NCBI GenBank assembly: GCA_947473045.1
Contig: CANJCO010000009.1
Coordinates: 1 to 64,000, forward strand
Source: Myxococcales bacterium
Lineage (GTDB): Bacteria; Myxococcota_A; Polyangia; Polyangiales; Polyangiaceae
Reading direction: 5' to 3'
DNA: 64,000 nt
The position numbers and the translations under genes are program-made. Below are positions 1 through 52,020 of this stretch, piece after piece. Numbering within the stretch: the first letter of the stretch is position 1; each line of letters begins with the position of its first letter. The notes below the pieces were generated by a model. It was not told the DNA's origin, searched no databases, and was given only the letters and a program-made list of their open reading frames with translations.

Positions 1-147
1 AGGGTGTTGAAAAACACCCTGATAGTAATTGGCGAAGCCAATTGCGTGGGGTGGGGACCCCGAAAAACCGCGTTTTTCGGGGCGGGGAGGTGCATACCTC
101 CCCGAGATGAAAGGCTAGCAGGCCGTTCTTCAACGGCCTGCTAGCGC
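1..147. repeat. Six-hairpin intergenic repeat, copy A
   Basis: The first 147 bases are almost wholly consecutive inverted repeats. H1 is 1-20 (8-bp stem, GAAA loop). H2 is 27-43 (7 bp, GAA loop). H4 is 58-82 (11-bp stem around CGC, with runs of five A and five T). H5 is 83-104 (9 bp, GCAT loop). H6 is 114-145 (14 bp, CTTC loop). A weaker G-rich/C-rich pairing (48-61) competes with H4. A second, diverged copy lies at 15641-15791, so this is a dispersed element and not a chance palindrome. The left end may continue beyond the window. It sits just after the 3' end of the minus-strand oxidoreductase gene. Function is unknown; a 3'-end RNA structure, terminator or REP/MITE-like element are all possible. 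Confidence 0.85.
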
Positions 148-14358: not shown

Positions 14359-15639
14359 ATGCTCGAGCCCGATCTCCGCGCCGCCGACCCCGCCATCGCC
14401 ACCCTCATCGACGACGAAAACCGCCGCGAGCACGAGTCGCTGCGGCTCATCGCGAGCGAAAACTACGCCTCGCGCGCGGTCATGGAAGCCACCGGATCGT
14501 GCCTGACGAACAAATATTCCGAGGGCTACGCGCGCAAGCGCTACTACGAGGGACAGCAGGTCATCGACCAAGTCGAGGAGCTCGCGATCTCGCGCGTCAA
14601 GGCGCTCTTTGCAAAGACGCGGGGCAAGGGCGAAGGGCAGGACGACCTCCACGTGAACGTGCAGCCCTACTCGGGCAGCCCCGCCAACCTCGCCGTCTAC
14701 CTCGCGTTCTGTCAGGCCGGCGATACGATCATGGGCCTCGGCCTCGCATCGGGCGGTCACCTGACGCACGGCCACTCCGTCTCGATCACGGGCAAATATT
14801 TTAAGAGCGTGCCTTACGGTGTGCGCCGTACCGACTGCCGCATCGACATGGACGAAGTGCGCTCGCTCGCCAGGGAGCACAAACCGAAGGTGCTCTGGGC
14901 GGGGACTACGGCGTACCCGCGCGCCCTCGATTTCGCCGCCTTTCGCGAGATCGCAGACGAAGTCGGCGCCATCCTCGCGGCCGACATCGCGCACATCTCG
15001 GGGCTGGTCGTGGCGGGCGTTCACCCGTCGCCGGTCGGCTACGCCGACGTGATCACCTCCACCACCCACAAGACCTTCCGCGGCCCTCGCGGAGGCATGA
15101 TTCTCTGCAAAAAAGAGCACGCCGCAGCGATCGATCGCGCCGTGTTTCCGGGGCTGCAAGGCGGCCCGCACAACCACACCACCGCTGGCATCGCCGTCGC
15201 TGCCCACGAAGCCGCGCGGCCCGAATTCGTGCAGTATGCACAGAACGTCGTCGACAACGCGAAGGCCCTCGGCGAGGCGCTCTCCGCGCGCGGTTTCGCG
15301 GTCGTCACCGGCGGAACCGACAACCACCTCCTGCTCGTCGATGTGACCGCCAAAGGCGTCACCGGCAAGGTGCTCGCGCAGGCGCTCGATCGCGCCAACA
15401 TCGTACTCAACTACAACGCGGTGCCGTTCGACCCGCGCAAACCGTTCGATCCGTCGGGCATTCGCATCGGCACGCCCGCCGTGACGTCGCGCGGCATGGG
15501 CCGCGACGTGATGCTGATGCTCGCCGAGTGGATCGACCGCGTGACCGCTGCGCCCGCCGACGATTCGGTCGTGGCCGGCGTTGCGGCCGAGGTCAAGGCG
15601 CTCTGCGAGAAATACCCGGCGCCCGGCCTGCGGCTTTAA
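14359..15639 (+). CDS. glyA: Serine hydroxymethyltransferase
   Basis: The 426-residue enzyme interconverts serine and glycine with tetrahydrofolate, using pyridoxal phosphate. Key segments are IASENYAS (about 33-40), NKYSEGYARKRYYEG, the YSGSPANLAVY segment, the GHLTHGHSVS segment, the aspartate region AADIAHISGLV, and the PLP-lysine motif TSTTHKTFRGPRGG with Lys about 238. Length and all motifs are normal, so it is functional and cytoplasmic. The ATG at 14359 has no visible Shine-Dalgarno site and lies 8 bases after a candidate -10 box. Its stop codon is one base before repeat copy B, whose hairpins would form in the 3' end of the glyA mRNA. Confidence 0.97.
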   Translation: MLEPDLRAADPAIATLIDDENRREHESLRLIASENYASRAVMEATGSCLTNKYSEGYARKRYYEGQQVIDQVEELAISRVKALFAKTRGKGEGQDDLHVNVQPYSGSPANLAVYLAFCQAGDTIMGLGLASGGHLTHGHSVSITGKYFKSVPYGVRRTDCRIDMDEVRSLAREHKPKVLWAGTTAYPRALDFAAFREIADEVGAILAADIAHISGLVVAGVHPSPVGYADVITSTTHKTFRGPRGGMILCKKEHAAAIDRAVFPGLQGGPHNHTTAGIAVAAHEAARPEFVQYAQNVVDNAKALGEALSARGFAVVTGGTDNHLLLVDVTAKGVTGKVLAQALDRANIVLNYNAVPFDPRKPFDPSGIRIGTPAVTSRGMGRDVMLMLAEWIDRVTAAPADDSVVAGVAAEVKALCEKYPAPGLRL

Positions 15640-15640
15640 C

Positions 15641-15791
15641 AGGGTGCTCGAAAAACACCCTGTTAGTAATTGGCGAAGCCAGTTGCGTGGGGTGGGGACC
15701 GGCGAAAAACCGCGTTTTTCGGGGCGGGGAGGTGCATGCCTCACCGAGATGAAAGGCTAGCAGGCCGCTGCTTCAACGGCCTGTTAGCGCG
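15641..15791. repeat. Six-hairpin intergenic repeat, copy B
   Basis: This is a diverged copy of the element at 1-147, in the same orientation, starting one base after the glyA stop. Hairpins correspond to H1 (15641-15661, 6 bp), H2 (AATTGGC with GCCAGTT), H4 (8 bp around CGC), H5 (one mismatch) and H6 (15756-15788, 12 bp). Relative to copy A, three stem changes give U.G, U.G and G.U pairs when read as plus-strand RNA. The outer or inner ends of H1, H4 and H6 are eroded. Its right part forms the 3' end of the minus-strand MYXO-CTERM gene, supplying about the last 13 codons and the stop. It probably acts at the 3' end of glyA mRNA or as a mobile palindromic element. Confidence 0.88.
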
Positions 15792-44696: not shown

Positions 44697-47600
44697 ATGC
44701 ACGACATCCGCCTTCGCGGCGCCCGCACCCACAATCTGCAGGGGATCTCCCTCGATTTGCGCGCCGGCGAGCTGGTCATGGTCACCGGCCCGAGCGGCGC
44801 CGGCAAGAGCTCGCTCGCGATGGATACGCTCTACGCCGAGGGGCAGCGGCGGTTCGTCGAGAGCTTCAGTCCTTACGCGCGGCAGTTTCTTGAGCGCCTG
44901 GAGCGACCGCCCATCGACTCGCTCGATCCGATCGCGGCGACGGTGGCCGTCGACCGCCGCGCGCCGGTCAAGTCGAGCCGTTCCACCCTCGCGACGATGG
45001 CGGATCTCGAGCCCTATCTGGCCGCGCTGTTCGCCAAGGAATCACGCCCGGTGTGCCCTGACTGCGGGGTGATCGCCGAAGAGACCAGCGCCGCGAGCGC
45101 CGCCACGCGCGTGCTCGCAGAAGCGACCGGCGCGCCGCGAGCCGTCGTAGCCTACGCGCTCCGCCCCGAGAGTCCCGACCACTTCCTCGAGCTTCGCGAG
45201 TCGCTCGCGAGAGACGGCTTCGTGCGTTTGGTCATCGGTGGCGAGACGCGCGATCTCGATCTCGTGCGACCCAGCGACGCGCTCGCGCAGGGAGCCGATC
45301 CGCACGTGGTCGTAGACCGACTCAAGCTTGAGCCCGCGAGCCGGCGCCGCATTCAGCAGGCCATCGAGAGCGCATGGGAGCGCAGCTCCGGCCGAGCCCG
45401 GGTCGACGTAGCGGGCGGCCCATCGATGACCCTCGCCCGAGGCCTCGTGTGCCCCTCGTGCGCGCGCACGTTTCAACCCGCGGCGGCGGGGCTGTTTTCG
45501 TACAACTCGGCGCTCGGCGCCTGCGGGGGCTGCAAGGGCTTCGGTCGCGTCATCGCCGTCGACTGGGAGAAGGTCATCCCCGACCCGAAAAAGTCCCTCG
45601 CGAAGGGCGCGATCAAGCCGTGGGGCGGAACATCCGCCGAGTCGGAGCGCGAGCTGCTCAAGGAGTTTTGCACGCGCAAAAAGATTCCGATGGACGCTGC
45701 CTGGGAGCGCCTGACCGCAGCGCACCAAGCGCTCGTGATCGACGGCGAGGGCACCTGGACTTCCGGCAAGTATCCCGGCGTCCGCGCGTGGTTCAAATGG
45801 CTCGAGACGCGCACTTACAAAATGCATGTGCGCGTATTTTTGGCGCGCTACCGCGAATATTCAGTGTGCGACCAATGCCACGGCGCGAGGCTCAACGCGA
45901 GCGCGCTCGCCTATCGCATCGCGGGCAGAAACCTCGGAGCGTGGCACACGCTGACGGTGCGCGAAGCCCTCGCGCTGATCGCGACCGTCTCTCCGCGCGA
46001 CGCGCAGGGCAAGCTGGCCAGGAGCGAGCTCGCCGCGAGGCTCGGCTACCTGGAGACCGTCGGGCTCGGCTATCTCGGCCTCGATCGTCAGGCGCGCACC
46101 CTCTCGGGCGGCGAGGCGCAGCGAGCCGGACTCACGACCGCCCTGTCAGCCACGCTCACCGGAGCGCTGTTCGTCCTCGACGAGCCTACCGTCGGCCTGC
46201 ACCCTACCGACGTTCCGAGGCTCAACGTCGCGATGCGTGAGCTCGCCCAGGCCGGCAACGCAGTGCTCGTCATCGAGCACGACGAGCGCGTGATTCGAGC
46301 GGGCGATCGCGTGATCGAGCTGGGCCCCGGGGCGGGCAAGAGCGGCGGGCATGTGCTGTTCGACGGCACGCCAGCGGCGCTCGCCGAGCGCACCGACACG
46401 CCCACGGGACGCGCGTGGTCGCGGCCGCACGACGTCGCGCGGACGCCACGAAAAGCAGCCGCGCAGCTCGCGATCCGCGGAGCCAGCGAGCACAACCTCA
46501 AGAGCGTCGACGTCGATGTGCCGCTCGGCGTCCTGTGCGCCATTTCGGGTCCGAGCGGCTCGGGCAAATCTTCGCTCGCCCGCGACATCGTTTATCGCGG
46601 CGTCGCCAGGGCGCTCGGCGACACCACCGTCGCCAGGTCGGGCTCCGTTCGCTCGCTGACCGGCTGCGACCAACTCTCACGCGTGGTGCTCGTCGATCAG
46701 TCGCCGCTCGGGCGGACGGCGCGCGGAAATGCTGCAACCTACACCAAAGCGTGGGACCGGATTCGGGCGCGCTTCGCAGCCGAGCCTGCGGCGCTTCACG
46801 GTGGTCTGACGCCCGCCCATTTTTCGTTCAACGTCGCCGGCGCCGGGCGCTGCGAGGCGTGCGCGGGCGAGGGCTACGAGACGATCGAGATGCAGTTTCT
46901 CGCCGATGTGTCGCTGCTGTGCGCAGTGTGCCACGGCAAGCGCTTCACACCCGCCGTGCTCGAGGTGCGCCATCGCGGACTGTCGGTGGCCGACGTGCTC
47001 GCGATGACGATCGAAGACTGTCTCGCCACGTTCGATTCGCGCGAGTCCGATGATCCCGTCTTCGGGCGGGCGCTCCGCCCGTGCGTGCGCGTCGGGCTTG
47101 GCTACCTCCCGCTCGGGCAGCCGCTGTCAACGCTGTCGGGCGGCGAGGCGCAGCGTCTCAAGCTCGCGCGCGCGCTTTCGGAACGCGCGGCCCGGACGCT
47201 GTTTGTGCTCGATGAGCCGAGCGCGGGACTCCACGCGCAGGACACCCGCCACGTCATCGACGCGATGCACGCCCTCGTCGACGACGGCGCGAGCGTGGTC
47301 GTGGTCGAGCACGATCTCGACGTGCTCCGGGCGGCCGACTGGCTCATCGACCTCGGTCCGGACGCAGGGCCCGACGGAGGAGAAATCGTCGCGCAGGGCA
47401 CCCCTCTCGAGGTCGCGGCCTGTGGCTCGCGCACCGGCAGGGCGCTGTCTGACGCGAGCGCTGAGGTCGCGTCTGCGCCGCTCCGTCGCGAGCCTGCGAA
47501 AGCCGCCATCGTCGTGGAGCGCGCGCGCGAGCACAACCTGAAGGCGGTGAGCTGCGAGATCCCGCACGGCAAGCTGTGCGTCGTGACCGGTCCGAGCGGA

Positions 47601-50003
47601 TCGGGAAAATCGTCGCTCGCCTTCGACGTCGTCTTCGCCGAGGGACAGCGACGGTTCATGGAAACGCTGACGCCGTACGCGCGCCAGTTTCTGCCGACGC
47701 TGCCCCGCCCCGAGGTCGATCGTGTGGTCGGCGTTCCGCCCTCGGTCGCCCTCGAACAGCGCACCACGCGCGGAGGCGCCAACTCGACCGTCGCGACGGT
47801 GACTGAAGTGGCGCACTACCTGCGGCTGCTGTTCGCGAAGCTCGGAGAAATGCGCTGCCCCGCGTGCGACACGGTGGTGGCGCCGAGCGCGCCCGACGAC
47901 CTGTTCGAGCGCCTCGTGACCACCCCGTCGGCAGACAATCACACGCTGTACGCGCCGGCTGTGCGCGCCCGCAAGGGCACCTATCTCGACGTGCTCACCG
48001 CGGCCTCGCGCGGAGGCGTGCAGACTGCACGTATCGACGGCGCGATCGTCGGCATCGATCCGCCGCCGCGCCTCGCGAAGACGAAGGAGCACACGATCGA
48101 CCTCATCGTGTATTTCGGCCCGCTCGCCAAGCTCACGCGGGCAGCGTTCGATCGCGCGCTCGCGTGGGGTTCGGGCGCGCTGCGAATCGCGGACGGTTCG
48201 CCGTCGGGCGCTACCGACGCGTCCGAGCGCCTGGTGTCGACCGCGCGCGCGTGTCCGGCCTGCGGCACCGGAGTGCCCGAGCTCGATCCGAGGTGGTTTT
48301 CGTTCAACACGAAGCAGGGCCAATGCGAGGCCTGCGAAGGGTCGGGCGTGCGCGGCGGACCGGTCGCCGCTGAGGCCGGCGAGACGAAGCGCTGCCCCGC
48401 GTGCGCCGGCACCAGGCTCGCGCTCGTGCCGCGCAAAGTTCAGCTGTTCGGCAGCACCTATTCCGAAGCGACCGCGCTGGACGTGAGCGCGGCCCACGCG
48501 CTCGTTTCGTCGTGGCGCTTCCATGGCAAGGCAGCGCTCATCGGTGCGGCGCCTCACGCCGAGCTGCTCCGCCGGCTCGCGTTCGCCCGCGATGTGGGTC
48601 TGGGGTATCTGGCGCTCGACCGCGCGGCGGCCACGTTATCCGGAGGCGAAATGCAGCGCCTTCGGCTCTCGGCGCAGCTCGGCAGCGGGCTCACCGGCGC
48701 GCTGTACGTGCTCGACGAGCCCACCATCGGCTTGCACCCGCGCGACACCCGACGACTCATCGACAACCTGCGCGCGCTGACTGCTTCCGGCTCCACGGTG
48801 CTGGTCGTAGAGCACGACGCCGACACCATTCGCGCCGCCGATCACCTCATCGATCTGGGGCCCTCGGGAGGGCGCGCCGGTGGCCAGATCATCGCCGCCG
48901 GACCCGCCGCGGACGTGCTCGCGCAGGCCGATTCGCCTACGGCGCAGGCGATCGCTGAGCCCATCCGGGCGTGGCGTACGACGCTGGCGCCGCCGAAGCA
49001 CGAGCTGGTTCTGACCGGCGCGCGCGCACACAACCTGAAAGACGTGACCCTTCGCATTCCGCTGGGGCGAATGACCGTGGTCGCCGGCGTGAGCGGCTCG
49101 GGCAAGAGCACGCTCGTGCGGCGAGTCTTGTACCCGGCCCTGCGACGCGCACTCGGGCTTGTCGCAGACGCGCCAGGGGCGCACGGCAAGCTCACGGGCC
49201 ACCAGCACGTGCAGCGCGCTCTGGCGGTCGACCAGTCCCCAATCGGCCGAACGCCCCGAAGCGTGCCTGCGACCTTTCTCGGCATCTGGGACGAGCTTCG
49301 CAAGCTCTTCGCCGGCCTTCCCGAAGCGAAAATCCGCGGGTATTCGGCCGCGCGTTTCTCCTTCAACACGCCCAAAGGCGGGCGGTGTCCGGCGTGCGAA
49401 GGCCAGGGCGCGATCGTCAGCGAAATGGCTTTTTTGCCCGACGTCGTCTCGCCCTGCGAAACCTGCGGAGGCACACGCTTCGAGCCGGCCACGCTCGAGA
49501 TCACGTACGCCGGCCGATCCATCGGCGACGTGCTGCATCTGTCAGCCGAGGAGGCCGCCGAAGTCTTCGTCGCCCATCCAAAAATCGCGCGTCCGCTCGC
49601 GACCCTTCGCGATCTCGGGGTCGGCTACCTGCAGCTGGGGCAAGGCTCGCACACGCTCTCCGGCGGAGAGGCGCAGCGGCTGAAATTAGCCGCAGAACTC
49701 ACCGCGGGCTCCGCGCACGAGCCGACCGTCTACGTCCTCGACGAGCCCACCACCGGCCTGCACCTGTCGGACGCGCGGCGCCTCGTGGCGGTGCTGGACC
49801 GACTCGTGGCGCGCGGCGACACGCTCGTGATTGTGGAGCATCACCCCGACGTGATCGCCTCGGCCGACCACGTCATCGAGCTCGGTCCCGACGGGGGCAC
49901 CGCGGGCGGAACCATTGTCTACGAGGGCACGGCCGCGAAGCTTGGTCGCGCGAAAACGGCTACGGGACGCTTCTTCGCGTCCCTGCGCGCGTCCCTGCCC
50001 TGA
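44697..50003 (+). CDS. uvrA: Double-length UvrA with four ATPase cassettes
   Basis: The 1768-residue protein is twice the usual ~940. It has four Walker A motifs (about 31 GPSGAGKSS, 618 GPSGSGKSS, 965 GPSGSGKSS, 1464 GVSGSGKST) and four LSGGE signatures (about 469, 813, 1314, 1654), each with a DEP Walker B. The order is NBD1-NBD2-NBD1'-NBD2'. Both halves keep the EGQRRF...YARQFL segment and CxxC zinc sites, including CEACAGEG...CAVCHGKRF in the first half and CPACEGQG...CETCGGTRF in the second. UvrA normally works as a dimer finding DNA damage for UvrB; here the dimer appears covalent. A boundary lies near residue 940. The ATG has a weak ribosome-binding site. Confidence 0.93.
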
Positions 50004-51537: not shown

Positions 51538-52020
51538 ATGAAGAGCGACGTCTGGCTGCGCGGATTTCTGGCGAGCGTGGGTGCGGCTGCAAGCGAAGAA
51601 CCGTTCGATACGGGGCGCAAGCTGCCCGCGTTCGTCGACCTGCTGAGCGACCTCGAGTGGCTGCTGGTCATCCTGTCGATCGAGACCGAGCTGAAGGTCG
51701 ATGTGCCCGAGAAGCTCGCCGGCAGCCGAAGCGTCACGATCGCCCAGTTCATCGAGCGTGTCGCCGCGTTGCCGAAGGTGAAGCATCCCTACTGGAACCT
51801 CAACCGGTTCGGCGCGTTGACCTCCGCGATCCTTGAGCTCGATCATCCGGCCAAAGAGGCCGCCGCTCCCAAAAAGGCCGCCGCTCCCAAAAAGGCCGCC
51901 GCTCCCAAAAAGGCCGCCGCTCCCAAAAAGGCCGCCGCTCCCAAAAAGGCCGCCACTCCCAAAAAGGCCGCCGCTCCCAAAAAGGCTGCCGCTCGCAAGA
52001 CGTCGCCCGCGAAGCGCTGA
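51538..52020 (+). CDS. Acyl-carrier-like protein with AAAPKK repeat tail, no pantetheine serine
   Basis: The 160-residue protein has an N-terminal domain (about 1-105) and a basic tail. Residues 37-59 align with the ACP core (SDLEWLLVILSIETELKVDVP against D-S-L-D-T-V-E-L...E-I-P); the phosphopantetheine Ser position is Asp38. The tail (about 108-150) is seven AAAPKK-type units (one AATPKK), resembling histone H1 tails that bind DNA or RNA. It should not carry an acyl group. ATG 51538 has AGAAGAGAG upstream. It lies between an FHA gene and an FHA-sigma-54 activator. The fold call rests on short alignment. Confidence 0.7.
   Translation: MKSDVWLRGFLASVGAAASEEPFDTGRKLPAFVDLLSDLEWLLVILSIETELKVDVPEKLAGSRSVTIAQFIERVAALPKVKHPYWNLNRFGALTSAILELDHPAKEAAAPKKAAAPKKAAAPKKAAAPKKAAAPKKAATPKKAAAPKKAAARKTSPAKR
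51859..51984 (+). repeat. Seven 18-bp tandem repeats encoding AAAPKK
   Basis: Seven tandem copies of the 18-bp unit GCCGCCGCTCCCAAAAAG run without gaps; the sixth has one change (GCC ACT CCC). A degenerate eighth unit follows. In-frame units of 18 bp would expand or contract by slippage, so tail length may vary among strains. Confidence 0.93.

Follow-up and report, generated by a model that had tools for sequence, protein, structure and literature searches.

The first 64,000 nucleotides of a Myxococcales contig (the window, meaning here the whole stretch of DNA that was analysed) contain the same hairpin-rich repeat twice, and the locus raises the question of what this repeat is and whether its folding is maintained for the sake of an RNA read from one strand. 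The original prediction had described a dispersed element of six hairpins whose substitutions keep pairing when it is read as plus-strand RNA. The answer developed below is that the repeat is probably a non-autonomous IS5-type MITE with a structured interior.

The repeat in the window and in its genome

Both copies are real, with limits refined to 1-140 (copy A) and 15640-15783 (copy B). Since window position 1 is base 1 of the contig (C9), copy A is missing the left flank as well as its first C. Copy B adjoins glyA, as had been noted, its start at 15640 following directly on the glyA stop codon. The features are as follows.

1..140, + strand: copy A of the putative MITE, young type; initial C cut off by the contig start
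1..20, + strand: H1, left terminal hairpin AGGGTGTTGAAAAACACCCT; the inverted repeat CAGGGTGTTGAA is its outer arm
25..45, + strand: H2 hairpin, GTAATTGGC-GAA-GCCAATTGC
46..90, + strand: conserved core common to several genera, GTGGGGTGGGGACCCC-H4-GGGGCGGGGAGG
83..103, + strand: H5 hairpin, CGGGGAGGTGCATACCTCCCC
114..144, + strand: H6, right terminal hairpin; outer arm with the inverted repeat (reverse complement CAGGCCGTTGAA), outermost 4 nt being the target duplication
141..144, strandless: CTAG, right target duplication of copy A; the left one is missing beyond the contig end
14098..15639, + strand: ORF with glyA (serine hydroxymethyltransferase), upstream of copy B; a translation, named from recognisable sequence and the original prediction, with the true start of the gene probably inside it
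15636..15639, strandless: TTAA, left flank of copy B, including the glyA stop codon
15640..15783, + strand: copy B of the putative MITE, older type
15784..15787, strandless: TTAG, right flank of copy B; first 3 nt the same as in the left flank

Copy A folds much more stably than shuffled sequences, with z -9.1 on the plus strand and -9.0 on the minus strand; the fold of copy B is weaker (z -3.3 and -3.1, respectively) and its predicted fold does not include all the hairpins. Six hairpins are one too many, because H3 (GGGG..CCCC) and the lower stem of H4 compete, and the predicted minimum fold of copy A has five. Relative to copy A, copy B reads ACCGGCG instead of ACCCCG at the foot of H4, and one pair of H5 is broken, which agrees with the stem-breaking change already reported there. 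The three pair-keeping differences claimed between the copies fared unequally: those in H2 and H5 do give U.G on the plus strand, but the one in H6 (CTGCTAG to CTGTTAG) sits in the flanking target duplication and thus reflects the insertion site, not selection on the stem. Four G4 tracts are suggestive of a G-quadruplex, yet the hairpins remain the preferred fold in ViennaRNA when quadruplexes are permitted.

Some other repeats were observed in the window. At 150-208, GCGCGCCCAACATGACGCGACTTACA occurs twice as a short tandem duplication adjoining copy A. An 18-bp tandem repeat of about nine copies lies at 51851-52012 and can encode a lysine/alanine/proline-rich, histone-H1-like tail. A motif like LDEP(T/S).GLH.. 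of UvrA-type ATPases is found four times at 46170-49784, which suggests either a pair of UvrA-like genes or a single gene that has been duplicated in tandem.

Across the 5.15-Mb genome the repeat forms a dispersed family of about 141-144 nt, many copies of which are identical and the most divergent about 75% alike. A search with 20 element bases, allowing up to 2 mismatches, gave 155 genome-wide matches (83 forward, 72 reverse), and the reversed-pattern control gave 0, so that the repeat is far more frequent than chance would allow. The covariance model that had been proposed as a check, built here from 35 distinct copies (R1; alignment A1), found at least 150 matches in the same genome. As about 78 of the model matches listed lie at contig ends, we estimate some 110-120 copies, an approximate count given that the assembly breaks in the repeat; the 21 full copies in a 0.80-Mb sample agree with this figure. 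About 80 of the 276 contig ends fall in the repeat, which accounts for the fragmentation of the assembly. Lone 23-bp palindromes with YTAR-like flanks, consisting of little beyond two MITE ends, were also seen (L138:7164-7193, L120:11101-11130 and L132:19700-19730); they are perhaps minimal MITE derivatives.

Ends, insertion sites and a candidate transposase

The element spans CAGGGTGTTGAA to TTCAACGGCCTG, with terminal inverted repeats CAGGGTGTTGAA / CAGGCCGTTGAA, and the 4 bases flanking it on each side are YTAR-like. Young copies (at most 3 edits from the young consensus, n=16) carry a YTA(R) target duplication: the first 3 flanking nucleotides match left and right in 15/16 and all 4 in 10/16, position 4 of the duplication being mismatched in the other 6. 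At flank position 1 they show C/C in 11 cases, T/T in 4 and T/C in 1 (Fisher p=0.003). Among old copies (at least 13 edits away, n=16) the flanks agree in 1/16. The flank agreement is thus the trace of a target duplication, which is gradually lost as copies age. Tandem copies have one CTAG in common, as would result from the insertion of a copy into another copy's duplication.

Placement was scored for 34 copies on codon-usage-based gene calls. None of them lies within a gene, in a sequence that is 89% coding; 14 lie between convergent genes, in gaps that account for 16% of the intergenic sequence (p=0.0003). About half of the copies directly adjoin a stop codon. CTAG itself occurs in this genome at 0.07 of expectation. 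The abutment on stop codons is explained by the target, since YTAR includes TAG or TAA, and the placement at gene 3' ends by the CTAG target together with the avoidance of genes.

Two DDE transposases are encoded in the genome, on contigs C83 and C54. The first belongs to an intact 1,339-bp insertion sequence (IS), CTAA-CAGGACGTTGAGAAA ... GAATTTCAACACCCTG-CTAA, whose right end read inwards gives the inverted repeat CAGGGTGTTGAAA, identical to the left end of the MITE. Its transposase is assigned to the IS5 family (NF033581; score 273 bits, cut-off 140). Six relatives of this IS in other genomes, 55-68% identical, all have CAGG..G(T/C)TGAA ends and are flanked by CTAG, CTAA, TTAG or TTAA, the same on both sides in four and with a one-base difference in two. 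YTAR is the target duplication motif of IS5 (PMC10359306).

The element thus has the terminal repeat CAGGSYGTTGAA, the YTAR duplication and the genome in common with an IS5-family IS of the NF033581 type, but it is one tenth as long, has an unrelated interior and, at about 141-144 bp, is without a transposase gene of its own. Only the outer 12-13 bp or so are common to the C83 IS and the MITE, and on inspection the core is absent from the IS; the MITE therefore did not arise from this IS by simple internal deletion. Many MITEs likewise have an interior that does not derive from the parent IS by deletion, so this point is not decisive. Among the DDE loci inspected in other genomes, none was an IS with matching ends plus the core. 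The second transposase, of the IS701 family, was rejected as the mover because the ends of its IS are different (CACTACTTTGACA) and the IS has itself been inserted at the CTAG of a copy. This IS (L190, G000:C54, 148-1533; 412-aa transposase; ends CACTACTTTGACA..TGTCAAAGTAGTG) lies beside a MITE copy with CTAG on both sides.

From these sequence comparisons we infer, with a probability of roughly 0.9, that the element is a non-autonomous IS5-type MITE moved in trans by the single IS5-family transposase of the genome. This transposase would recognise the ends CAGG(GT/CC)GTTGAA and insert the element at YTAR, mostly in the form of CTAG or TTAG, with duplication of 3-4 bp. With CTAG being rare and often containing a stop codon, surviving copies would be those between genes and at stop codons. 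Pairing is kept in source copies that go on transposing, and individual copies decay regardless of pairing or strand. The hairpin core would be a module of its own, whose probable advantage is to aid transposition or to make insertions tolerable.

Described prokaryotic MITEs such as QMITE2 of Coxiella and MITEAba12 are likewise short and intergenic, with terminal inverted repeats, duplications that fade with age and strongly folding transcripts (PMC10969869). The present element differs from them in being G+C-rich, in having a hairpin at each end and in possessing a core that is conserved between elements of different ends and hosts. A literature search found no report of it.

Strand asymmetry and other explanations

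The strong folding and covariation of the repeat, and the location of many copies at the 3' ends of genes and in the gaps between convergent ones, are also what a functional structured RNA read from the plus strand (a terminator, a 3'-UTR stabiliser or a small RNA) could show. Selection on such an RNA should tolerate G.U pairs and not A.C. In the 35 distinct copies, with flanks and weak pairs left out, the stem changes private to one copy comprise 8 G.U, 11 A.C, 23 mismatches of other kinds and a single case in which both bases changed and form a standard pair, and the distinct derived stem states come to 13 G.U and 13 A.C. Mismatches thus fall equally on both strands across the further copies, and the plus-strand-specific selection that had been proposed is not borne out. 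Among the changes common to several copies, 12 cells have both bases changed so as to form a standard pair, a figure in which inherited changes are counted repeatedly. In H1, nine copies have a C.A, which can pair on the minus strand but not on the plus strand.

Nor is the element consistently oriented towards its neighbouring genes. The original prediction had suggested comparing its strand with that of nearby genes; of the genes that abut a copy, more run antisense to its plus strand than along it (13:4, p=0.049, a weak effect). Copy B has no U-tract or other intrinsic terminator. Rfam 15 at the gathering score gave nothing relevant in the window or in 11 related loci, and copy B at a relaxed threshold gave chance-level matches only. 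We consequently hold the structured-RNA explanation to be improbable. The wider claim of a dispersed element with stems kept by paired changes did stand: covariation exceeds that of shuffles and of slid controls, and H4 is rewritten yet paired. The transposing lineage keeps its pairing, on either strand, and single copies are free to decay. Conservation of the pairing is seen in source lineages and is strong between genera.

REP, BIME and REPIN sequences, which are associated with RAYT, are likewise palindromes that are scattered outside genes and have a tetranucleotide at their foot. The CTAG at the foot of the terminal hairpins and the existence of lone hairpins would suit a REP/REPIN-like repeat that depends on a Y1 (RAYT) transposase for its movement, or a single-strand element of the IS200/IS605 type. 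This explanation is very improbable, however, and is largely refuted by the absence of a Y1 transposase from the genome (99.98% complete; one each was found in genomes G022 and G056); moreover, the element has target duplications, which are not expected under such a mechanism. Hairpin-rich msDNA-related repeats have been described in the myxobacterium Nannocystis, but an origin from a retron or reverse transcriptase is the least credible of all, as no reverse transcriptase is present in the genome or in G005 and the data are better explained by IS5 ends and 3-4-bp duplications at YTAR. A search of IMG/VR viral contigs and plasmids gave no match.

The hairpin core in other genera and phyla

MITEs are usually regarded as empty shells defined by their ends. 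The recurrence of the core of the present MITE, GTGGGGTGGGG(A)CCCC-hairpin (H4)-GGGGCGGGG-hairpin (H5), in elements with other ends in other bacteria was unexpected. The R1 model found copies in 11 of 59 genomes of relatives, the host included. These have H2, GTGGGGTGGGG(A)CCCC-H4-GGGGCGGGG and H5 in common and differ in their outer hairpins, which are AAGGTCTGTC..GACAGCTCT in G022, AGAGACTG..CGCGCTCT in G056 and GAGAGTGGCCG..CACTCTC in G004; the same core therefore sits within elements of different ends. In other genera the H4 stem is fully rewritten yet paired. The 32 distinct H4 sequences contain 156 Watson-Crick cells, whereas 1,000 arm shuffles averaged 124 and never exceeded 138.

A strict core pattern was matched in 14 of 184 Polyangiales genomes and its reverse in 0; as the pattern fixes the G tracts, their conservation is partly circular, H2, H4 and H5 being unaffected except for the fixed G/C runs. 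In a phylum sample of 379 genomes the core was present in only 8, all from the family of the host. In Emb289 and Labilithrix some copies seem to be the core alone. Among the Polyangiales elements with the core, target duplications were seen only in those of the host genome.

The core was also found in three MAGs titled Acidobacteria, with 16 copies in one; the binning may be wrong, but three MAGs agree. In MAG BP9.bin43 (L196, L209, L247 and L316) it belongs to a dispersed element of about 272 bp with a 17-bp inverted repeat, CCCAAATCCCGCGATTG, and 4-6-bp duplications in 3 of 4 copies (GAGAT, CTCCAG and AAAG). This element apparently uses a different transposase.

Our best guess is that these elements share the core as a structural module, one that assists the transposition of small elements or makes them easier to tolerate. 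A more specific proposal, which we advance tentatively and with the odds against it, is that H2, GTGGGGTGGGG, H4 and H5 form a portable module passed between miniature elements of unrelated transposases in Myxococcota and Acidobacteria, selected because its fold, as RNA or single-stranded DNA, helps small elements to multiply or be tolerated. If so, the core would be a shared 'engine part' of MITEs. The ends differ by host, and the structured core is recognisable across genera and two phyla with its stems rewritten by compensatory change, suggesting that selection acts directly on the interior of some MITEs.

One near-identical copy of the young type was observed in another genus, at 2-119 of L142 (G006:C52), at the start of a 5-kb contig; it reflects either horizontal transfer or contamination.
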